This document shows positions 36,206 through 48,338 of a stretch of DNA of 50,204 nucleotides, one piece after another. Every line of letters begins with the position of its first letter. The first letter of the stretch is position 1. Position numbers and translations under genes: made by a program. The notes beneath the pieces were generated by a model. That model was not told where the DNA came from, searched no databases, and saw only the letters and a program-made list of their open reading frames with translations. This DNA is from Gammaproteobacteria bacterium (GTDB lineage Bacteria > Pseudomonadota > Gammaproteobacteria > SZUA-152): contig DROS01000081.1 in NCBI GenBank assembly GCA_011321815.1, positions 1 to 50,204 on the forward strand, written 5' to 3'.

Positions 36206-36459
36206 GGCTTTATTCCGACTGACAGAATAACCCAGTGCATTCAGCGCCTTTTTCATGCGACGGCGTTTCTGCGGCTTCTGCGTAACAAACCCCATGTTTT
36301 CCTCATTCCCTTGCTCTCCACATGGGAATGCATGCAGTGGGCCCGGGGTTGCGCGAGGGATGAAATCAGCAACCCGATCCTGGCCGCACAATCAGCCAAA
36401 ATACAGTATCATTGCGCCTTTTGGCCCAGCCGGGCCCGGCAACACATACAGGAAGGCCT
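36206..36459. other. stretch between broken toxin and purL
   Basis: It must hold the purL promoter, but no clear hexamers or PurR-like palindrome were recognised. A minus-strand frame (36176-36391) with a Lys/Arg-rich end has no recognised relative and no convincing ribosome site, and is not called. Confidence 0.4.
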
Positions 36460-39400
36460 ATGTTTCAGCTTCGCGGTGGCGCTGCACTCTCTGATTTTCG
36501 TCTGCAAAAATTGCTGCTGGCTGCTCAGGCCCGGGTGCCGGAAGTCACGCAAATAAGTACGGTTTTTGAGCATTTTGTGGATTTGCATACGACGCTCGAC
36601 AGTAAAAAACAGGCGGTGCTTGCCCAGTTGTTACGGTATGGCGGCAGGGCTGATACGGCGGATAACGGGCAACCGGCGGGGAGGCTGTTGCTGGTGGTGC
36701 CGCGTCCGGGGACGATTTCTCCGTGGTCATCCAAGGCCACCGACATCGCGCACAATTGCGGGCTCGGTGAAATCCATCGTATCGAGCGTGGCACGGCTTA
36801 TTATTTTGCCGGGGCTGGGGGTGTGGCGTTGAGTGATTATCAATTGTCGCTACTCAAGCCGTTGATCCACGACCGCATGGTGGAACAGGTGATGGATAAC
36901 CTGGATGATGCCGATGCGCTGTTTATGCAGGCTGAGCCCGCGCCCATGACGACGGTGGATATTCTCGGTGGTGGGCGTGCTGCGCTGGTCCGTGCCAATG
37001 CCGAACAGGGGTTGGCGTTGGCCGATGATGAAATTGATTATCTGCTGGACAACTTCAGTGCGCTGGGGCGCAATCCCACAGACGTGGAATTGATGATGTT
37101 TGCCCAGGCCAACTCTGAACACTGCCGCCACAAAATTTTCAATGCTGACTGGGTTATCGACGGTCAGCCGCAGGACCATTCCCTGTTCAGGATGATTCGC
37201 AACACCCACGAAAGCCATCCCCAAGGTACATTGTCGGCATACAAGGACAACGCGGCGGTGATGAGTGGCAGCGCAGGCCAGCGGTTTTTCCCGAGCCCGG
37301 ATACCGGGCGTTATACGTATCACAATGAAGATGTGCCGATTTTGATGAAGGTGGAAACCCATAATCATCCCACAGCCATTTCGCCTTTTCCTGGTGCGGC
37401 CACCGGCTCCGGGGGGGAAATTCGTGATGAGGGCGCCACTGGCCGTGGTTCCAAACCCAAGGCGGGGTTGTGTGGGTTTTCTGTGTCGAATCTGAATCTG
37501 CCTGATGCGCCGCAACCCTGGGAAACGGATTATGGCCGGCCGGGGCGCATTGTTTCGGCGCTGGATATCATGCTGGACGGTCCCATCGGTGCGGCGGCAT
37601 TTAACAATGAATTCGGACGCCCCAATATTTGTGGTTATTTCCGTACTTTCGAGGAAAACGTGCCGTCAGCAGGTGGGAAAAAAGACGGCAAGGAGCCTTC
37701 AGCGATTAATAAAGAAGTGCGCGGTTATCACAAGCCCATCATGCTGGCGGGTGGACTGGGTAATATTCGTGCCGGGCATGTGGAAAAAAATGTCATTCCT
37801 CCAGGTGCGCAACTGATTGTGCTGGGTGGTCCGGCGATGCTCATTGGTTTGGGCGGTGGCGCGGCGTCCAGCATGGCCACGGGTGACAGTCATGAAGACC
37901 TGGATTTTGCTTCGGTGCAACGGGGTAATCCGGAAATGGAGCGCCGGGCGCAGGAGGTTATCGACCGCTGTGTCGCCATGGGTGACAACAATCCCATTGT
38001 CTCCATTCATGATGTGGGCGCGGGCGGGTTGTCCAATGCCATGCCGGAAATCGTACACGACTGCGGGCGTGGCGCGCGTTTTGAGTTGCGCACCATTCCC
38101 AGTGATGATCCGGGTATGTCGCCCAAAGAAATCTGGTGCAACGAATCCCAGGAACGCTATGTGATGGCGGTGACTTTGGAACGGTTGGCGGAGTTTGAGG
38201 CGCTGTGTGAGCGGGAGCGCTGTCCTTATGCAGTGATCGGCGAGGCCACCGAGGAGCAACAATTGCTGTTAGGCGATGGTCACTTTGATAACATGCCCAT
38301 TGATATGTCCATGGAGGTGTTGTTGGGCAAACCCCCCAAGATGCTGCGCGATGTGCATCACAAAACTTTCCATAAGCTGGAATTTGATACCGCCGGTATT
38401 GATTTTATGGACGCGGCCATGCGCGTGTTGCGCCTGCCCTCGGTGGCGGACAAAACCTTCCTCATCACCATTGGTGACCGTACGGTGACGGGCATGGTGA
38501 CACGTGACCAGATGGTGGGCCCCTGGCAGGTACCGGTGGCCGATGTGGCGGTGACCAGTACGGATCTCACCGGTTATGCCGGTGAGGCCATGGCTATGGG
38601 CGAACGCACGCCCATAGCGTTGTTACATCATGCGGCTTCGGCACGTATGGCCGTGGGTGAGGCCATCACCAATATTGCCGCTGCGCGCATTAACCGGCTC
38701 AGCGAGCTTAAATTGTCGGCCAACTGGATGTCTCCGGCGGGGCATCCCGGTGAAGATGCCGGTTTGTTTGATGCCGTCAAAGCAGTGGGTATGGAATTGT
38801 GTCCCGAGCTGGGTATCGCCATTCCGGTGGGCAAGGATTCCATGTCCATGAAAACCGTCTGGCAGGAAGAGGGCGAGGATGGTCAGGAAGAAAAATCCGT
38901 GACTTCACCGCTGTCGCTGATCATCACCGCTTTTGCGCCCGTGCTGGATGTGCGTGACACGCTGACACCACAGTTGAAAGACGGTGGTGACCTGATTCTC
39001 ATTGACCTGGGCAAGGGTGAAAACCGCCTGGGGGGTTCTGCGCTGGCACAGGTTTACAAACAGCTGGGACATCATGCGCCGGATGTGGATGATGCGGGCG
39101 CATTGAAATCTTTTTTCACCGCGATACAGGCGCTCAGCCGGCAGGGTTTGTTGCAAGCCTACCATGACCGCTCTGATGGCGGTTTGCTGGCCTGTGTCTG
39201 TGAAATGGCCTTTGCTGGCGCCATGGGCGTCAATATCCAGTTAGACGGGCTGGGTGATGATGCGCTTGCGGCATTATTCAATGAAGAGCTGGGTGCGGTG
39301 ATTCAGGTGAATCACACCGACACCGATGAGGTGTTGGCGTGCCTGCGGGAGCATGGTCTGGGCAGGCACAGTTTTGTTATCGGTGCGCCCACGGACGACA

Positions 39401-40398
39401 ATCGTATCAGTTTCCGTTTTGATGGCAGCGAAGTATTAGGCGGGGACCGTATGGTATTCCGTGGCGCCTGGTCTGAAACAACGCTGCACATGCAGACGCT
39501 GCGTGATAATCCGCAGTGCGCCCAACAGGAAATGGAGGCCCGGCTGGATGCCGCTGATCCAGGGCTGAATGTTCAGTTGCGTTTTGATATTGACGACAAT
39601 GTGGCCGCACCATTTATTCATACAGGAGTGCGTCCGCGCATGGCCATTCTGCGGGAGCAGGGTGTGAATGGTCAGATTGAAATGGCTGCGGCTTTTGATC
39701 GCGCCGGTTTTGATGCCATTGATGTACACATGAGTGACATTATCGCCGGGCGTGTTTCACTGGCTGATTTCAAAGGTATGGTGGCTTGCGGCGGTTTCTC
39801 ATACGGCGACGTATTGGGCGCCGGGGAAGGCTGGGCAAAATCGGTGTTATTCAACGGTCGCGCGCGGGATGAATTCGCAGCCTTTTTCCAGCGCGACGAC
39901 AGCTTTGGTCTGGGTGTGTGTAACGGTTGCCAGATGATGTCCAACCTGCACGAGCTGATTCCGGGTGCGGGCCTGTGGCCACATTTTGAGCGCAATGCTT
40001 CTGAACAGTTTGAGGGCCGCTTGTCACTGGTGGAAGTGCTGCCATCGCCTTCGTTGTTTATGGCTGATATGGCCGGTTCACGCATGCCCATAGCCGTGGC
40101 GCATGGTGAAGGGCGCGCCGTGTTCGCCGATGGTGTGCAGCCAGTGCTGGATGCGGGTGTGGCTACTTTGCGTTATGTGGACAATCATGGTTTGCCCACA
40201 GAACATTATCCTGCCAATCCCAATGGTTCACCACAGGGTATCACCGGGTTGACCACGACGGATGGCCGTTTCACCATCATGATGCCGCACCCGGAGCGGG
40301 TATTCCGCGCGGTGCAGTATTCCTGGTCCCCGGAAGAATGGGGTGAGGATGGCCCGTGGCTGCGCATGTTCCGCAATGCACGGGTGGCGGTGGGGTAA
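36460..40398 (+). CDS. purL: phosphoribosylformylglycinamidine synthase
   Basis: The fourth step of purine synthesis, FGAR + Gln + ATP to FGAM. It is the large single-chain form, about 1312 residues, normal for gammaproteobacteria. The N-terminal PurS-like domain (1-140) is followed by a linker, then the FGAM synthase domains with the ATP-binding [30 protein letters not shown] and [14 protein letters not shown] duplicated half contains GKDSMSMKT. The C-terminal glutaminase has the nucleophile in [12 protein letters not shown] and the HPERVFR triad region. I start at ATG 36460 (AGGAAGG upstream), not at the in-frame 36412. It sits in the same neighbourhood as in E. coli, upstream of glrK-qseG-glrR, with three extra genes between. 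Confidence 0.97.
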
Positions 40399-41729: not shown

Positions 41730-42311
41730 TTGGACGAATATTTACTGCTGTTGCTGAATCAAACGCTCTCCAATGCCGGTTTCGATCTCTTTTTTGCCTG
41801 GATTTCACAAGACCTGTTTTTTTCCACGCCGTTGCTACTGACGGTGATGGTTTTTTTGAGTTGGCGTTTTGGTAAAGACGGTTTCAAATTCTGGCTGCTG
41901 ACCATTGTATTCATTTCGCTGGGTGACCAGTTGGGCGCACTGTTAAAACATCTCATTGCCCAGCCTCGCCCTTGTGCAGAGTTGGGCAGTGTTGTGCGGC
42001 AGGTGGATACCGTGTTTTCCATCAACTGTAGCCGTAAGCTCAATGGCATGCCGTCCAATCATGCACTGAATTTTTTTCTGTTTGCGTCCTTTAGTAGTTA
42101 TGTGCTGCGTTGGCGGGGCTGGATGGTGGGTTTTGGTTTGCTGGCGGTATTGGTTGCATTGTCACGTGTTTATCTGGGGGTGCATTACCCGAGCCAGGTA
42201 CTGGTGGGTGCGTTTATTGGTACGGGGCTTGGCGCCGGAATGGGGTGGCTGAGTTTGCGGTACTTGTCTTTTGTGCAGCGTGTGACGCAAGCTGCACGCG
42301 TGAATATATGA
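41730..42311 (+). CDS. PAP2-family membrane phosphatase
   Basis: A 193-residue inner-membrane protein with about five helices. The three PAP2 motifs are visible: KHLIAQPRP (K-x6-RP), MPSNHA (usually PSGH) and SRVYLGVHYPSQ (SR-x5-H-x3-D, with Gln replacing Asp). The catalytic His pair and Arg residues are present, so activity on a lipid phosphate (undecaprenyl-diphosphate, phosphatidate or PG-phosphate) is plausible, though two motif residues are unusual. The start is TTG 41730 with AAGGA 9-10 bases upstream; no ATG fits. The GlrR-like sites begin 2 bases after its stop, so the next gene has separate control. Confidence 0.83.
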   Translation: MDEYLLLLLNQTLSNAGFDLFFAWISQDLFFSTPLLLTVMVFLSWRFGKDGFKFWLLTIVFISLGDQLGALLKHLIAQPRPCAELGSVVRQVDTVFSINCSRKLNGMPSNHALNFFLFASFSSYVLRWRGWMVGFGLLAVLVALSRVYLGVHYPSQVLVGAFIGTGLGAGMGWLSLRYLSFVQRVTQAARVNI

Positions 42312-42313
42312 AC

Positions 42314-42331
42314 TGTCGCCATTTTGCGACA
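42314..42331 (+). promoter_or_regulatory. GlrR-type upstream activating site 1
   Basis: TGTC-N10-GACA exactly (TGTC 42314-42317, GACA 42328-42331). The published E. coli GlrR recognition pattern is TGTC-N10-GACA. Its centre is about 176 bases before the predicted sigma-54 transcription start, a normal enhancer distance. Confidence 0.8.
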
Positions 42332-42379
42332 GGCTTGACTGGTGGTATTTCACGGTTTCCCCCTTTTTTTCTGATTTTC

Positions 42380-42397
42380 TGTCTCCCCAGAGCGACA
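42380..42397 (+). promoter_or_regulatory. GlrR-type upstream activating site 2
   Basis: A second exact TGTC-N10-GACA (TGTC 42380-42383, GACA 42394-42397), centred about -110. Two exact copies within 84 bases are very unlikely by chance. Confidence 0.82.
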
Positions 42398-42407
42398 CTT
42401 GTTCCCG

Positions 42408-42425
42408 TGGCGGCCAGGTCTGACA
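42408..42425 (+). promoter_or_regulatory. GlrR-type upstream activating site 3, one mismatch
   Basis: TGGC-N10-GACA, centred about -82. One base differs from the pattern. Three sites in a row resemble the arrangement upstream of E. coli glmY. Confidence 0.55.
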
Positions 42426-42471
42426 CGGCGATTATTTTGTAACATATTGAATATCAAAGAAATGGTTAAGT

Positions 42472-42487
42472 TGGCACGCCATTTGCT
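42472..42487 (+). promoter_or_regulatory. sigma-54 promoter of the EF-hand gene
   Basis: TGGCAC-GCCAT-TTGCT is a full match to TGGCAC-N5-TTGCW. Transcription should start near 42498, about 49 bases before ATG 42547. The activator is probably GlrR, encoded at 45372-46730. Confidence 0.92.
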
Positions 42488-42546
42488 AGTGCTATGGTGT
42501 CGATGTTTGATGCGACATGCCACTTACTAAGAATGAGGAATATGTT

Positions 42547-42786
42547 ATGCGAAAGGAACTATTGTTTGCCTCGCTGGCCATGATTATTTCCAGCACTGTT
42601 TATGCCGATGAAACGTTCGACCAGATCGATACTGACCAGGATGGTGCTATCAGCAAAGCCGAAGCGGCTTCGGTCCCTGCTTTGACTGACCTGTGGGATA
42701 CCTACGATAGCAACACAGATGGCAAGTTGGATGAAGCAGAATTTGCCCGCTTTGAAATTGCTGTACCCAAGGCGGGAACCAAATAA
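42547..42786 (+). CDS. small exported EF-hand protein
   Basis: A 79-residue protein. MRKELLFASLAMIISSTVYA is a cleavable signal peptide, leaving about 59 residues in the periplasm or outside. Two canonical EF-hand loops follow: DTDQDGAISKAE and DSNTDGKLDEAE, with all Ca2+-ligand positions filled. It therefore looks like a compact two-hand calcium-binding module. I use ATG 42547 (GAGGAATATGTT upstream); an in-frame ATG at 42517 would spoil the signal peptide. The consensus sigma-54 promoter and GlrR-type sites just upstream predict envelope-stress induction. The kinase-regulator genes for that control lie 550 bases downstream. Confidence 0.88.
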   Translation: MRKELLFASLAMIISSTVYADETFDQIDTDQDGAISKAEAASVPALTDLWDTYDSNTDGKLDEAEFARFEIAVPKAGTK

Positions 42787-43149
42787 GCACGATAAGCGAA
42801 TTGAATTCGAGAACCTCTACCCTTCCTCCCCTCTATCAAGGGACTTTGGTATGAATCCGGACGCGGCAGACAGGATGTCAAGCTCCACCGATTTGAGACG
42901 TTGATCGCAGGTAATAATGGCCATTGCAGTGATCAGCAGCGAAAAATCAACGGATTGAAAGCCCGGAATGCGAGTCTGGTGATTCGTTCAGGGTTCCTTG
43001 AGAATAGAGGTTCTCGTGTGCGGTGCGGGAAGCGCCGTAAAAGTCGATTGTACGCACATGCAATCGGCGGCTCAGGAGGCACATCCTGTAAAACTGTGCT
43101 TTCGGCTCCAAAAGTTCCATGGATGGAATTTTTGGAGCCACCTTTTTTT
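42787..43149 (+). ncRNA. candidate structured 3' RNA / small RNA (glmY-position)
   Basis: 363 gene-free bases between the EF-hand stop and a strong terminator. Successive hairpins can be drawn: GACA-GGA-TGTC (about 42871), GAGAA/TTCTC (43003-43018), CGGTGC-GGGAA-GCGCCG (43021-43038), GATTG/CAATC (around 43050-43070) and CACA/TGTG, before the terminator. E. coli has the sRNA gene glmY in this slot between purL and glrK, under GlrR and sigma-54. No direct similarity to GlmY can be claimed by eye. It could be a separate sRNA, a 3'-UTR-derived sRNA of the EF-hand mRNA, or just a long leader/spacer. Confidence 0.45.
43104..43149 (+). terminator. strong intrinsic terminator before glrK
   Basis: GGCTCCAAAA pairs with TTTTTGGAGCC, with an inner stem TTCCA/TGGAA, followed by CC and seven T. 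It ends the sigma-54 transcript and separates it from glrK. The following 184 bases (43150-43333) should hold the glrK promoter, which I could not identify. Confidence 0.9.
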
Positions 43150-43333
43150 AGGGTTGTTATCAGAGGGACGTTGGCAACCGTTTTGACCATCCTGCCGGCC
43201 AAATACCCTGGATCTTTATTTTGGTGTGGTCTTTGTTTCGGTTTATGATGCCCCAATGCCTTGCGCAATCCCGGGATGTAAAATCAGCCTTCCAGTATTT
43301 GCAGACATGCCGTTGTTTCGGGGGCATTGAGCT

Positions 43334-44803
43334 GTGCGTCTGACTCTGCCCACCTCGATCTTCCAGTTAGCGCTGATCGGTTTTTTGCTTGCAACCCTGC
43401 CGCTTTCGGTGGCACTGGTAAACACTTTTGTGCAGATTGACCGCCTCTCGGCACAAATGCAGCTTGCCGTGAGTGATTCTGCCCAGGCGGTTGAAGCCAG
43501 CCGCACTATCATGGCCCAGGTGCTGAACATGGAGCGCAGCACGGGGCAGTACCTCGTTTTACGCGATCCTGCCGTATTGCAGCGTTATGAGGATCAGCGT
43601 GGCCAGCTTGGCAATGCCGTTCTCCTGCTGGAGAGTTTGCCATCAGGTGAGAGTCTGTTGGACCGGCTCAAGCAGTTGCGTGAACATGAGCAGGCTTTGT
43701 ACGACAAACTTCGTGAGGTGGCCGGCAGCCCCCAACCGCAGGCGCAGGATATGCCACTCAGGTTGGCGGAACAGCATAACCTGACCCGGCTTGTACGTCC
43801 GATTCCTTTCGAGGTTACGCAGATGATCACCCGGCGAAGCAATGTGATTACCCGGCAGATGGAGCAGATGCAGGGTTTGTTGTTGTTACAGGCGTTGGGC
43901 CTGGTACCGCTGGCGTTGATTCTCGCGGTCGTCTTCAGTGTGCTGATCAGCCGCCCGCTGCGGCGTCTTGGCGCCGCTATTCACCGCCTCGGGGCCGGTG
44001 AATTTTTGACCCCGGTAAAGGTAAGTGGGCCGCAGGATGTGCGTGAACTCAGTGAACACCTGGACTGGCTGCGCAAAAGGCTGTCCGAGCTGGATGAGCA
44101 AAAACAGACATTTCTGCACCATGTGTCACATGAATTGAAAACACCATTGACGGCCATTCGGGAAGGCACGGAATTGCTGTGTGATGAAGTGGTGGGTACG
44201 CTGAACCCGGAACAGACCGAAGTGGCCAGCATTCTGCGGGAGAGCAGTCTTCAGCTACAGGCACAGGTGGAGGCTCTGTTGAACTTTAATGCCGCGCTGG
44301 CGCAGGAAAAACCGCAGCAACAGGAAACCATTGCACTTGATACACTGTTGCCGGAAATTATCGGCAAGCACCGCCTTGCCATGCGTGCGCGAAAAATTAC
44401 CGTGCAGACCGGCCTGCAAGCGGTTAGCCTGTGTGGTGAGCGTAACCAGATTCGCACTCTGCTGGACAACCTGTTGTCCAATGCCATCAAATATTCGCCA
44501 GACGGTGGCCAGGTTCAATTGAATGCCTGGGTAGAGAACAATGAGGTCTGCATTGATGTCATAGACGCAGGGCCGGGTATCAGCAGCGAAGAACGTGGAC
44601 AGATTTTCGAGCCTTTTTTTCAGGGGCGGCAACTTGCAAAGGGGCACGTTAAAGGGACGGGGTTGGGTTTGGCCATCGCCCAGCGTTATGCTCGACTGCA
44701 TCGTGGCCATATTATAGTGCGGGATAGTCAGGTTGGGGCACATTTACGGGTCATTCTGCCTGCGCAGAATAAAAAATACACAGGAGATATTTGTACTCAA
44801 TGA
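43334..44803 (+). CDS. glrK: sensor histidine kinase GlrK (QseE)-like
   Basis: A 489-residue inner-membrane kinase. TM1 spans about residues 10-32, a helical periplasmic domain of ~145 residues follows, TM2 is about 184-205, and then come HAMP, HisKA and ATPase domains. The phospho-acceptor is His 266 in SHELKTPLTAIREG. The ATP-binding N box is DNLLSNAIKYSPDGG, then DAGPGIS and GTGLGLAIAQRYARLH. The order kinase - lipoprotein - NtrC-type regulator is that of glrK-qseG-glrR in E. coli, which senses envelope conditions and activates a sigma-54 promoter. The start is GTG 43334 (TTGAGCT upstream, weak). Its stop overlaps the lipoprotein start (ATGA). Confidence 0.88.
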   Translation: MRLTLPTSIFQLALIGFLLATLPLSVALVNTFVQIDRLSAQMQLAVSDSAQAVEASRTIMAQVLNMERSTGQYLVLRDPAVLQRYEDQRGQLGNAVLLLESLPSGESLLDRLKQLREHEQALYDKLREVAGSPQPQAQDMPLRLAEQHNLTRLVRPIPFEVTQMITRRSNVITRQMEQMQGLLLLQALGLVPLALILAVVFSVLISRPLRRLGAAIHRLGAGEFLTPVKVSGPQDVRELSEHLDWLRKRLSELDEQKQTFLHHVSHELKTPLTAIREGTELLCDEVVGTLNPEQTEVASILRESSLQLQAQVEALLNFNAALAQEKPQQQETIALDTLLPEIIGKHRLAMRARKITVQTGLQAVSLCGERNQIRTLLDNLLSNAIKYSPDGGQVQLNAWVENNEVCIDVIDAGPGISSEERGQIFEPFFQGRQLAKGHVKGTGLGLAIAQRYARLHRGHIIVRDSQVGAHLRVILPAQNKKYTGDICTQ

Positions 44804-45375
44804 TGTACCAGGGGATAGGAATAATAGCTGTGCTGACATTGACAGCCTGTGCTCAATGGCAGGCAATCACACAGGTCGGGCACAATGAAGCCTGTGAAGG
44901 CATCACCAATTTCTACACAGCAGTTTCTTTATTGCCACCTGAGGCCGGGCAGGAAATGGTACAAGCATTACGTGTAAGCCAGGTGCAGGATAACAATCCA
45001 TGTGACCAGCTGCGTTTGGTGATGTTGCTTGGCAAACCTGATACGGCTTTCCATGACAATACCGAGGCAGCCCGGTTGGTGCAGGATTTTCTGTACGACC
45101 CTGATTACGCGCAACATCCTGACCGGGGCTTGGCATCGCTGCTGGCAGATAACATCAAGGAGCGTCAGCAACTACAGGAAAAATTGCGCAGCCAGGAAAA
45201 AAGTCTCACGCTGGAACAGGCTGTTTCGCAAAGGCTGGCAAAGAAGCTCAAGCGGGAACATGCCGCTGCGAAGGCATTGAAGTCACAGCTTGAACAGCTA
45301 AAGTCCATCGAGCAGGACATTAACGAAAAAGAGCAGTCAGCAGCCGTTCCCAACGGCAAGCAGAAAAGCCGATGA
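44800..45375 (+). CDS. qseG: QseG-like lipoprotein
   Basis: About 191 residues. MMYQGIGIIAVLTLTAC is a lipoprotein signal with lipobox LTAC. The mature N-terminal part has conserved-looking Cys in NEACEGI and NNPCDQLRL, and the C-terminal third is a long coiled coil (KERQQLQEKLRSQEKSLTLEQ and onward). In E. coli QseG is an outer-membrane lipoprotein that binds and activates the GlrK sensor. The identification rests on gene order, size and architecture. It overlaps glrK by 4 bases and glrR by 4 bases, so all three are translationally coupled. ATG 44800 or 44803 are possible starts. Confidence 0.78.
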   Translation: MMYQGIGIIAVLTLTACAQWQAITQVGHNEACEGITNFYTAVSLLPPEAGQEMVQALRVSQVQDNNPCDQLRLVMLLGKPDTAFHDNTEAARLVQDFLYDPDYAQHPDRGLASLLADNIKERQQLQEKLRSQEKSLTLEQAVSQRLAKKLKREHAAAKALKSQLEQLKSIEQDINEKEQSAAVPNGKQKSR

Positions 45376-46730
45376 ACCAAACCAAAATACTTCTGATTGA
45401 CGACGATACCAGCCTCTTGAGGCTGCTGTCGATACGTCTTACGGCCGCCGGTTATGCAGTTGAAACGGCCACCAGCGGGCGTCAGGCACTGGGCAAGATG
45501 CCTGTCTGCCAGCCGCATTTGATCATCACCGATCTGCGCATGGAAGGCATGGACGGCATGGCCCTGTTCGACGAAGTGCATGCCCGCTATCCCTCATTGC
45601 CGGTGATCATTCTCACCGCTCATGGCAGTATTCCTGATGCGGTTGCCGCCACTCGCAAGGGTGTATTCAGTTATCTGACCAAGCCTTTCGACAGCAAGCA
45701 ATTACTGGATAACATCAGTGCTGCCCAGCGGCACAGCGGCCAACTGCAAATTGATGACGATGCCGTCAGTGATGACCAGACCTGGCGCCGGGGAATCATC
45801 ACCGCCAGCCCGGTGATGGATGAACTGCTTAAACAGGCCTGGCGGATGGCGCAGGCGGACGTCAGTATTCTTATTCAGAGTGAAAGCGGTACCGGCAAGG
45901 AGCTGCTGGCACAAGCCATTCACGCCGCTGGCCCACGTGCTGAAAAACCTTTTGTGGCTATCAACTGCGCTGCTATTCCTGAAGCATTGCTGGAATCAGA
46001 ACTTTTTGGTCATCGCAAGGGAGCCTTTACCGGCGCCGACCGAAATCACACAGGTCTGTTTGAAACTGCCAACGGCGGCACCTTGTTCCTGGACGAAATC
46101 GGTGATATGCCACTGGAGTTTCAGGCCAAGCTGTTGCGCGTGTTACAGGAAGGGGAAGTGAGGCCAGTGGGAATGGCGCAAGCGATCCCGGTGGATGTCA
46201 GAATCATCTCGGCCACCCACACCGATCTTGAAGCGGCCACAGAGGCACGTACCTTCCGTGAGGACCTTTATTATCGTCTTAATGTCGTTATGCTGGAACT
46301 TCCGGCGTTGGCCAGTCGCTGTGAAGACATTCCGCTGCTCGCCAACCATTTCCTCTCCCAGCTGCAACAACGTTCCCCCAGTTGCATCGCCCGGTCCTTC
46401 TCTCGTGAAGCCATGGAACTGCTTATGGTCGCCCCCTGGCCGGGTAATATCCGCCAGTTGCTCAATGTTGTTGAACAAGTGGCTGTGCTGACAACTTCCC
46501 CGCTTATTTCCGCCAGTCTCGTGCAGAAGGCCCTGCGTGGCAAAACCAAAGAAGTGCTGCCACTGGGTGAAGCGCAAAGCCAGTTCGAGCGCGACTATCT
46601 CGTACAAATAATGCAAATGACCCGGGGCAATGTCTGTCAGGCTGCCCGTCTGGCGCAGCGCAATCGCACCGACTTTTACAAGTTGCTGCATCGTCATCAA
46701 CTGGAGCCGGCCCTGTTTCGGCATAATTGA
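45372..46730 (+). CDS. glrR: sigma-54-dependent response regulator GlrR (QseF)-like
   Basis: A 452-residue NtrC-family activator. The receiver domain (1-115) has the acidic pair D10-D12 and phospho-acceptor D54 in IITDLRM, with Lys in LTKPF. The AAA+ domain shows Walker A SESGTGKE (170-177), the sigma-54 contact loop GAFTGA (217-222) and Walker B GGTLFLDEIGDM. A Fis-type helix-turn-helix closes the protein (GNVCQAARLAQRNRTDFYKLL). It is phosphorylated by the adjacent kinase. Two exact copies of the GlrR recognition pattern lie 3 kb upstream, before the EF-hand gene. It is followed by 234 bases without a gene, containing a short repeat shared with 40501. Confidence 0.92.
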   Translation: MNQTKILLIDDDTSLLRLLSIRLTAAGYAVETATSGRQALGKMPVCQPHLIITDLRMEGMDGMALFDEVHARYPSLPVIILTAHGSIPDAVAATRKGVFSYLTKPFDSKQLLDNISAAQRHSGQLQIDDDAVSDDQTWRRGIITASPVMDELLKQAWRMAQADVSILIQSESGTGKELLAQAIHAAGPRAEKPFVAINCAAIPEALLESELFGHRKGAFTGADRNHTGLFETANGGTLFLDEIGDMPLEFQAKLLRVLQEGEVRPVGMAQAIPVDVRIISATHTDLEAATEARTFREDLYYRLNVVMLELPALASRCEDIPLLANHFLSQLQQRSPSCIARSFSREAMELLMVAPWPGNIRQLLNVVEQVAVLTTSPLISASLVQKALRGKTKEVLPLGEAQSQFERDYLVQIMQMTRGNVCQAARLAQRNRTDFYKLLHRHQLEPALFRHN

Positions 46731-46964: not shown

Positions 46965-48338
46965 ATGTTGTCCCTTAACCTCCGTGTATTAATTGCCGCC
47001 AGTGCGATTCTCTCCAGTTTCTTTGGTTTGGCTGGCGTCACTCTGGATCAGAATTACCGCAGCAGTGTGGAACAGGCGCTGGAAGATCAGTTGCTGGGCT
47101 CTGTGTATGCGTTGATCGCTGCCGCCGGGCTGGATGAGAATGGTCATTTGACGATGCCGCGGGCGGTGCCGGATCGGCGGTTTTCCAATCCGGATTCAGG
47201 GCTGTATGCCCAGGTGACCAGTAATAATAACAACTGGCTGTGGCGCTCTGAGTCGATGGAAGGCATTGAGCTTCCTTTTGATCGTGGCTTGCCGCGAACG
47301 AAGCGTTTGGGCAAAAAAGTGACACGGCCTTCGGGACAAGAGGTGTATCTGCTGAGTTATGGCGTTGTGTGGAGTGATGGTCCTGATCCGGAGCTGGCTT
47401 ACACTTTTGGCATTGCACAGGATATGGCAGGTCTGAATGCCCGGGTTGCCGGGTTTCGTCGCAGCTTGTGGGGTTCGTTAGGTGGTGTGGCATTGCTGTT
47501 GTTGGCGGTGCAGGGCGCTATTTTGCGGTGGGGTTTATCGCCGCTGAAAAAGGCGGCGGATGAGCTTGTGGCCATTGAGGCGGGTCGGCAGGTAAGGCTA
47601 CAGGGCGGTTATCCGCCTGAGCTTCAGGGTTTGACGGGAAATATCAATACTTTGTTGTCTCAGCAACAGGAACACCTGGATCGTTACCGGCGGACTTTGG
47701 GTGATTTGGCGCACAGTCTGAAAACACCCCTGGCGGTGTTGCAGAGCGCAGCAGAAAACAAAGGCGAGCAATCGTTATTACCGCAGGTTGTGCAGGATCA
47801 GGTGGAGCGCATGAACCAGATTACCGGTTATCAGTTGCAACGTGCAGCAACATCCGGCTGGACGGCATTGACGGCGCCGGTGAACGTAAGGGAGGTTGTC
47901 TGCAAGGTGGTTTCTGGTCTCAATAAGGTATACGCAGACAAAAAGGTGAATACGGTATTCGATGTGGATGTCTCCGTTGAGTTTCATGGTGATGAGGGTG
48001 ACCTGTTGGAAATTGTGGGTAATCTGCTGGATAACGCATACAAGTGGTGTGATCGTCAGGTGCGGATAACGGCCCGGAGTCGGCCGGGACCAAAAGAGGA
48101 TCAGTGGGATATTTTATTATGTGTGGATGATGATGGTGTGGGGGTGGCGCCGGAGATGGTGCAATATGTCATGCAGCGTGGCCGTCGTGCAGATAATGAT
48201 ATTGCGGGTCATGGCATCGGCTTGTCCATCGTGCGCGATATTGTGCAGGTATATGGTGGTACGTTGGAGATTGCCGTGAGCGGATTAGGGGGGGCGGCGC
48301 TGAATATCTGGTTGCCCATGCGTTTTGCCAATACCTAG
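46965..48338 (+). CDS. PhoQ-like sensor histidine kinase (orphan)
   Basis: 457 residues. TM1 spans about residues 8-28, a periplasmic sensor domain of about 135 residues follows, TM2 is about 170-190, and then a HAMP-like linker. The phospho-acceptor His 250 is in the PhoQ-type H box GDLAHSLKTPLAVLQ. The ATPase domain has GNLLDNAYKW, DDDGVGV and GHGIGLSIVRDIVQVYGG. PhoQ-family sensors respond to divalent cations or envelope stress. No response-regulator gene is adjacent in the same unit (glrR belongs to glrK and is 234 bases upstream), so the partner must be elsewhere. The TAG stop falls inside the end of a palindromic repeat (48335-48501). Confidence 0.88.
   Translation: MLSLNLRVLIAASAILSSFFGLAGVTLDQNYRSSVEQALEDQLLGSVYALIAAAGLDENGHLTMPRAVPDRRFSNPDSGLYAQVTSNNNNWLWRSESMEGIELPFDRGLPRTKRLGKKVTRPSGQEVYLLSYGVVWSDGPDPELAYTFGIAQDMAGLNARVAGFRRSLWGSLGGVALLLLAVQGAILRWGLSPLKKAADELVAIEAGRQVRLQGGYPPELQGLTGNINTLLSQQQEHLDRYRRTLGDLAHSLKTPLAVLQSAAENKGEQSLLPQVVQDQVERMNQITGYQLQRAATSGWTALTAPVNVREVVCKVVSGLNKVYADKKVNTVFDVDVSVEFHGDEGDLLEIVGNLLDNAYKWCDRQVRITARSRPGPKEDQWDILLCVDDDGVGVAPEMVQYVMQRGRRADNDIAGHGIGLSIVRDIVQVYGGTLEIAVSGLGGAALNIWLPMRFANT

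Follow-up and report, generated by a model that had tools for sequence, protein, structure and literature searches.

A glmY-type GlrR/sigma-54 control region (42314-42487), well supported by a site pair and a promoter that are conserved in relatives, precedes a gene for a small EF-hand protein and a conserved structured RNA in the window, by which we mean the whole 50,204-nt stretch of DNA analysed here. Control of the EF-hand gene by GlrR and sigma-54 is, on this evidence, highly probable, and the protein appears to be a target of a GlrR-type switch in the window genome, in its relatives and in several other families. We favour, with moderate confidence, the reading that GlrR here drives an EF-hand mRNA together with an RNA that binds CsrA, whereas in E. 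coli it drives GlmY, a decoy for RapZ. The features are listed in Table 1.

Table 1. Coordinates of the control region, the EF-hand/RNA unit and the neighbouring genes in the window.
Feature	Position	Strand	Remarks
purL	36412-40398		
PAP2 gene	41730-42311		
UAS1, GlrR-type site TGTC-N10-GACA, TGTCGCCATTTTGCGACA	42314-42331	+	exact match
UAS2, TGTC-N10-GACA, TGTCTCCCCAGAGCGACA	42380-42397	+	exact match; 66 bp after UAS1
One-mismatch UAS-like site, TGGC..GACA	42408-42425	+	probably not functional
Sigma-54 promoter -24/-12, TGGCACGNNNNTTGC	42472-42487	+	exact consensus
Small exported-looking two-EF-hand protein, 79 aa	42547-42786	+	best Pfam match EF-hand_1, 1.8e-9
Conserved structured RNA, 3' part of predicted transcript	42787-43149	+	core matched by covariance model, 43017-43147
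Stem 1	42808-43016	+	arms 42808-42819 and 43005-43016, 12/12 complementary
Hairpin 2, GGA in loop, CGGUGC-GGGAA-GCGCCG	43021-43037	+	GGA kept in aligned family genomes
Terminator hairpin, loop AUGGAU, and T-run	43104-43149	+	conserved in 12 genomes
glrK-like histidine kinase	43334-44803	+	HisKA/HATPase/HAMP; 35% identity to E. coli GlrK
qseG-like lipoprotein gene	44791-45375	+	lipobox LTAC and position
glrR, sigma-54 response regulator	45372-46730	+	best NCBIfam model GlrR, 614.5 bits (below cut-off of 763)
PhoQ-like histidine kinase	46965-48338		best NCBIfam model PhoQ, 197.7 bits (cut-off 497); directly after glrR

According to the preliminary description of this DNA, the EF-hand gene is preceded by two exact TGTC-N10-GACA sites and a full -24/-12 promoter; their coordinates were confirmed. 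A single exact site is uninformative, as the window genome holds 49 compared with 83 for the reversed pattern, and the weight lies with the site pair, the promoter and their conservation. Among the 49 sites, only UAS1 and UAS2 stand no more than 700 bp apart, and they alone precede any of the genome's 31 promoter sites (TGGCAY-N5-TTGC) by 1 kb or less. The promoter pattern says more than the single UAS does, its reversed form giving 10 sites. The exact promoter sequence occurs once in the 50 kb when both strands are scanned. A search pattern for the site pair (TGTCKC-N6-GMGACA twice, 35-60 apart) was found in six of the 369 class genomes, and its reversed form in none. GlrR would be expected to bind UAS1 and UAS2, with transcription starting near 42498. 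The only other neighbouring UAS and promoter in the window genome, a candidate second GlrR target on C108, were taken as a chance pair, the UAS (45339-45356) being downstream of the minus-strand promoter (45373-45387). A sigma-70-like sequence with a TG element (TTGGCA-16-TATGGT, window 42471-42498) overlaps the sigma-54 promoter; sites of this kind number two in the region against 1.3 in shuffles, and a similar overlap has been reported for glmY (PMC6075780).

The glmY gene of MG1655 sits between purL and glrK. The control region of the window resembles that of glmY in its -24/-12 promoter, in its position before glrK-qseG-glrR and in the sites themselves, UAS1 and UAS2 being similar to the glmY sites UAS2 (TGTCGCTTTCTGGCGACA) and UAS3 (TGTCTCTTTTTAGCGACA), which are 63 bp apart in E. 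coli and thus spaced much as the 66 bp of the window. QseF is reported to bind three UAS (TGTN12ACA) with IHF, and QseG to activate (PMC6075780). Unlike the E. coli region, the window would drive an EF-hand gene and another RNA, and it has two conserved sites rather than three. The strict IHF consensus was not found on the plus strand of the A+T-rich UAS-promoter interval in 12 of 12 genomes.

The genes in the window are ordered purL, PilZ-like, PAP2, EF-hand/RNA unit, glrK, qseG-like, glrR and PhoQ-like kinase. The unit had been assigned to the purL-glrK interval; purL is not its direct neighbour, the PilZ-like and PAP2 genes lying in between. The glrK-qseG-glrR set had been placed behind the EF-hand gene, and glrK indeed starts 547 nt after the EF-hand stop and is followed by glrR; the gene between them is called qseG-like for its lipobox and position, but its product gave no blastp match to E. 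coli QseG (E up to 10) and no Pfam match. GlrR of the window is 57% identical to that of E. coli, and the two share a C-terminal helix with RNRT[DE]FYKLL. No response-regulator-like gene was noticed after the PhoQ-like kinase in the list of open reading frames.

We looked for GlrR in 57 genomes and retrieved 20 stretches lying ahead of its gene. Twelve genomes of a single family (five of genus g1, including the window, six of g3 and one of g5) keep UAS1, UAS2, the GG-N10-GC of the promoter, the EF-hand gene, glrK and the qseG-like gene, the last two by tblastn, with glrR ending each stretch. UAS1 is exact in 11 of these genomes and has one mismatch in the remaining one, UAS2 is exact in nine and has one mismatch in three, and the spacing between them is 66-67 bp throughout. 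The conservation expected of the control region in relatives thus holds for both sites, the promoter and the EF-hand gene but not for the third UAS of the preliminary description, which is missing from the four closest relatives aligned and carries no weight because the 50-kb window contains 22 such one-mismatch sites. As the purL, PilZ and PAP2 genes were not found in the upstream stretches taken for g3 and g5, the conserved block begins at the UAS. A further genome (G023, L074) was found later and stands outside the 12-row alignments, and G005 was excluded since its contig breaks off some 0.4 kb past the glrR start. Nine other glrR-upstream stretches gave no match to the EF-hand protein or to the RNA model R1 described below; in seven of them (L031-L036, L039), glrK is present and the unit was not found upstream of it, and the other two (L037, L038) gave no glrK match. 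Directly before glrK, no exact UAS or EF-hand/RNA unit was found in G012, G014, G016 and G018 of the window's family or in G040, G044 and G051 of other families, all with a GlrR of 52-62% identity; in G016 a UAS pair sits just after glrR, ahead of a different gene. The organisms are uncultured Gammaproteobacteria, some of them labelled Chromatiales, and some isolate names suggest hydrothermal vents.

A GAGG ribosome site precedes the EF-hand reading frame, which begins at 42547. Its two loops (DTDQDGAISKAE and DSNTDGKLDEAE) have acidic or polar residues at positions 1, 3, 5 and 12, and its N-terminus, read from sequence alone, resembles a signal peptide; the protein is presumably exported and likely binds Ca2+ in the periplasm. 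The AlphaFold (AF2) model is a helix-loop-helix pair with a mean pLDDT of 75.7, residues 21-70 lying in blocks at 88-93 and the N-terminus being low, and its best solved Foldseek matches are of the calmodulin type, none with E at or below 0.001. Of the 12 within-genus pairs for which dN/dS was computed, 10 gave 0.03-0.14 and the two with L040 gave 0.21 and 0.25; of two between-genus pairs, one was saturated and one gave 0.51. Among other bacterial EF-hand proteins, EfhP of Pseudomonas aeruginosa likewise has two EF-hands, a likeness by description, and the excerpts of the EfhP literature consulted contain no link to GlrR.

The pairing of UAS and promoter with an EF-hand gene recurs in other families. 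We searched the 369 genomes of the class for an array of one UAS with TGGCAY-N6-TGC 70-100 bp downstream, which was found at 41 places in 32 genomes, compared with seven places for the reversed pattern. At 31 of the 41 places the sequence was read and an EF-hand tested by pattern, rather than by HMM, up to 1.2 kb downstream. The EF-hand pattern was present at nine of the 31 and in none of 116 control windows, cut from at most 63 other loci; outside the window's family (G000, G013 and G016 removed) it was present at seven of 28. The nine places belong to the window genome, G013, G309, G226, G224, G365, G222, G106 and G229, and one more case (G287) came through the UAS-pair search; the cases outside the window's family span seven families. 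In G106 and G229 the EF-hand protein has a longer C-terminus that is BON-like by eye. An alignment of the small EF-hand proteins from nine genomes holds over both loops, the second being degenerate in G309. The remaining 22 places have no EF-hand pattern and include a BON-like gene, a glycine-zipper-like gene and DUF2892-like membrane proteins, all named by eye. Fifteen genomes were picked by hand rather than drawn at random from the 34 with arrays (13 of the 32, together with G263 and G287); 14 of them encode GlrR orthologues (53-84% identity), and in 11 of the 15 an array lies, by coordinates, within 2.3 kb of glrR. The array beside glrR in G226 is a different one from that before the EF-hand gene, and in G365 array and glrR are on different contigs. 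Because nine of 31 array places compare with none of 116 control windows, and because arrays lie near glrR in 11 of 15 genomes, we regard the EF-hand protein as a recurrent GlrR-type target. In G263 (L145), a UAS pair directly after glrR precedes a PEP-CTERM-associated acyltransferase-like gene (named by eye). We found no report of a GlrR-controlled EF-hand gene and no paper pairing QseF with an EF-hand in the open-licence literature, and none of the matches listed there for GlrR and EF-hand combined the two.

An exported-looking EF-hand protein as the first product of the control region, as the preliminary description had it, is therefore upheld. Its wording that the GlrKR output "includes, or is" this protein is apt in the first half, but it overlooked a second product, a conserved structured RNA that belongs to the same predicted transcript. 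The role as calcium buffer or sensor and the feedback on QseG/GlrK that it put forward are conjectural. After the EF-hand stop codon, 12 of 12 genomes share a set of hairpins that ends in a terminator, and in the fold of the window RNA stem 1 encloses a CU-rich stretch and a genus-specific insert. The terminator hairpin (43104-43139, with the T-run reaching 43149) is the sole terminator-like site in 42200-43400, one being found where shuffles give 1.6, which points to a transcript of about 650 nt made up of the EF-hand mRNA and some 360 nt after the stop. We consider it very likely that protein and RNA share this one transcript.

The covariance model R1 was built from g3 and g5 only, using alignment A4, which leaves out the window's genus since alignment A1 had split hairpin 2 of that genus. 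R1 nevertheless matches the window RNA at 51 bits (5.4e-14) and the window's genus at 47.8-53.8 bits. Strong matches (E 8e-13 or better) occur in 13 of the 24 genomes covered for the order, all 24 belonging to the window's family; three more genomes have weak matches only, and a weak second match occurs in three of the 13. In the 12-row alignment, which was fitted to the structure of the model, 96.0% of 450 cells are paired and 16 of 38 pairs are changed on both sides; the covariation values were reached by none of 500 shuffles, and slid controls pair at 38-45%. Within the genus, identity to the window is 0.88-0.90 for the RNA core, 0.81-0.85 for the coding region and 0.30-0.42 for the spacer after the terminator. 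The RNA reached the gathering score of no Rfam family, and R1 found no match in the EF-hand loci of other families.

GGA is retained in the loops of both hairpin 2 and the terminator hairpin in 13 of 13 genomes. The hairpin 2 loop reads AGGGAU, AAGGAU, AGGGAC, AGGAA or GGGAA, the last two being the forms of the window's genus, which does not have ANGGAN in this hairpin; the terminator loop reads A-N-GGA-U/C with A, C, G or U as N, and AGGAU in G015. Two hairpins with GGA loops were reached by 0 to 11 of 100 shuffles per genome. GGA in hairpin loops, mostly occurring in twos, is the CsrA motif (PMC4333381) and is common to RsmW, CsrB/RsmX/Y/Z and the TwoAYGGAY RNA (RF01731). The window genome encodes csrA (PF02599, 94.3 bits). 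When four family RNAs were searched singly against 4227 Rfam families, RsmW, an RsmA-binding RNA, was the only listed match of the L040 RNA (E 0.0064, 26.6 bits) and of the L025 RNA (E 0.1, 20.7 bits), in each case full length and on the sense strand and far below the RsmW gathering score of 52 bits; an earlier Rfam search had given a sub-threshold RsmW match on the L040 RNA at E 1.4. RsmW was not matched by the window RNA or the L030 (G015) RNA searched alone, the former hitting a CRISPR repeat model on the minus strand and the latter anti-hemB (best, E 0.035) and ar14. The sub-threshold RsmW matches in L040 and L025 strengthen the CsrA-binding reading, and we judge it rather likely that the structured RNA binds CsrA. 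Sites resembling the CsrA consensus (at least 8/10) number three in the window transcript against 3.0 in shuffles, four to five in the four genus mates (2.6-3.0) and six to eight in the g3 genomes (2.1-2.6). In other families, the EF-hand 3' region of G309, which R1 does not match, has three GGA-loop hairpins (3 of 100 shuffles reach this number) and that of G224 one (12 of 100); G222 has one in the longer fold and none in the shorter, and G226 and G365 have no such hairpin after the EF-hand gene.

CsrB/RsmX/Y/Z-type RNAs are under GacA/UvrY control, and known CsrA sponges have more than two GGA-loop hairpins. The window RNA differs from these and from RsmW in that its conserved loops number two and lie in the 3' part of a predicted mRNA under predicted sigma-54/GlrR control. 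An effect on CsrA in trans, rather than only in cis, is a tentative proposal. The RNA might instead act in cis, CsrA or the structure alone setting the stability or translation of the EF-hand mRNA with no effect on CsrA in trans. We hold this to be rather unlikely. It would suit the placing of the RNA, which forms the 3' part of what is predicted to be one transcript, and the fact that only two GGA-loop hairpins are conserved in it, as well as the leaders of g3, five of six of which (L025-L029) carry ACAGGGACGU, a 10/10 match to the CsrA-type consensus, upstream of the EF-hand start. Speaking against it, but compatible with it, are the compensatory changes and an RNA core at least as conserved within the genus as the coding region, and likewise the E. 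coli counterpart at the same position, which acts in trans (PMC6075780, PMC7073468).

That counterpart also raises the question of whether the RNA is a GlmY-like decoy of RapZ, or a small RNA that base-pairs through its CU-rich loop. Like GlmY/GlmZ, the window RNA is a structured RNA ahead of glrK under predicted GlrR/sigma-54 control, the position being that of glmY, and the window genome encodes RapZ. CU-rich loops (CUCCUCU-like), a possible base-pairing seed, are seen in stem 1 in the window's family and in hairpins after the EF-hand stop of G222 and G365 (L171, L166). Unlike GlmY/GlmZ, however, the RNA is preceded by a protein gene, the GlmY and GlmZ models of Rfam do not match the RNAs of the window's family, and R1 does not detect E. 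coli glmY. RapZ of the window genome lacks the EKRKP end (basic tail) of the E. coli protein, which disfavours a GlmY-type role, and the RNA-binding domain of RapZ is reported to be restricted to Enterobacteriaceae (PMC7073468). We regard a RapZ decoy or base-pairing RNA as quite improbable beside CsrA binding.

R1 also matches dispersed multi-copy repeats in other gammaproteobacterial families (L091-L099, L110-L115, L130-L135), which have a similar hairpin order and ANGGAU loops. The pattern GGYRCANGGATGYRCC occurs 248 times in G089, 30 times in G042 and 23 times in G324, and its reverse not at all in these genomes. By eye the repeat ends look like inverted repeats, and mobile elements that carry CsrA-type hairpins are a possible identity for these repeats; the L091 copy matches rsmX below threshold (E 0.76), and a literature search with the sequence term gave only unrelated titles among the matches listed. 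G011, a member of the window's genus that lacks a close GlrR orthologue, carries a different element in two copies (L081, L084), with hairpins GGUGC-AGGGAC-GCACC and AUC-AGGAU-GAU. Such matches would fit a view in which only the EF-hand protein matters and the RNA, now serving as terminator, is the remnant of a dispersed GGA-hairpin repeat that became fixed, but three genera share the site, with compensatory changes and constant GGA loops next to a diverged post-terminator spacer, making this very unlikely. That the sites serve another sigma-54 activator or arose by chance, as the lack of enrichment of single UAS would allow, is scarcely credible given their pairing, spacing, promoter and glrR linkage across families, the reversed controls (0 for the pair; 7 versus 41 places for UAS and promoter) and the match to the E. 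coli glmY sites.

The sites, the promoter, the EF-hand gene and the RNA structure, together with their conservation, can be read directly in the genomes, and the mechanism that we propose around a CsrA-binding RNA would run as follows. GlrK and the QseG-like lipoprotein would feed phosphorylated GlrR, which would bind UAS1 and UAS2 and activate sigma-54 RNA polymerase at 42472-42487, giving a transcript from near 42498 to the terminator at 43149. The 5' part of this transcript would serve as mRNA of the small exported two-EF-hand protein, likely a periplasmic Ca2+ binder, and its GGA-loop 3' part would most likely bind CsrA and so connect the envelope signal with the CsrA network, a role comparable to that of GlmY, which in E. 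coli ties this signal to RapZ. Literature naming both QseF and CsrA exists, including PMC7073468.

Little is known, to our knowledge, about what GlrKR senses and does outside the enterobacteria. An EF-hand protein as recurrent target, often encoded beside glrR, raises the question of whether periplasmic Ca2+ or the EF-hand protein itself feeds into GlrK. More speculatively, and we regard this as a doubtful extension, GlrKR might be an ancient gammaproteobacterial periplasmic calcium/envelope circuit with an exported EF-hand protein as common output and a CsrA sponge in the window's family, of which the enterobacteria would have swapped the whole output for GlmY, rewiring the promoter architecture from protein and CsrA decoy to RapZ decoy. 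If the RNA binds CsrA, an envelope sensor would govern a global post-transcriptional regulator via a sigma-54 enhancer switch, and one promoter type would have carried two unrelated decoy RNAs in evolution.
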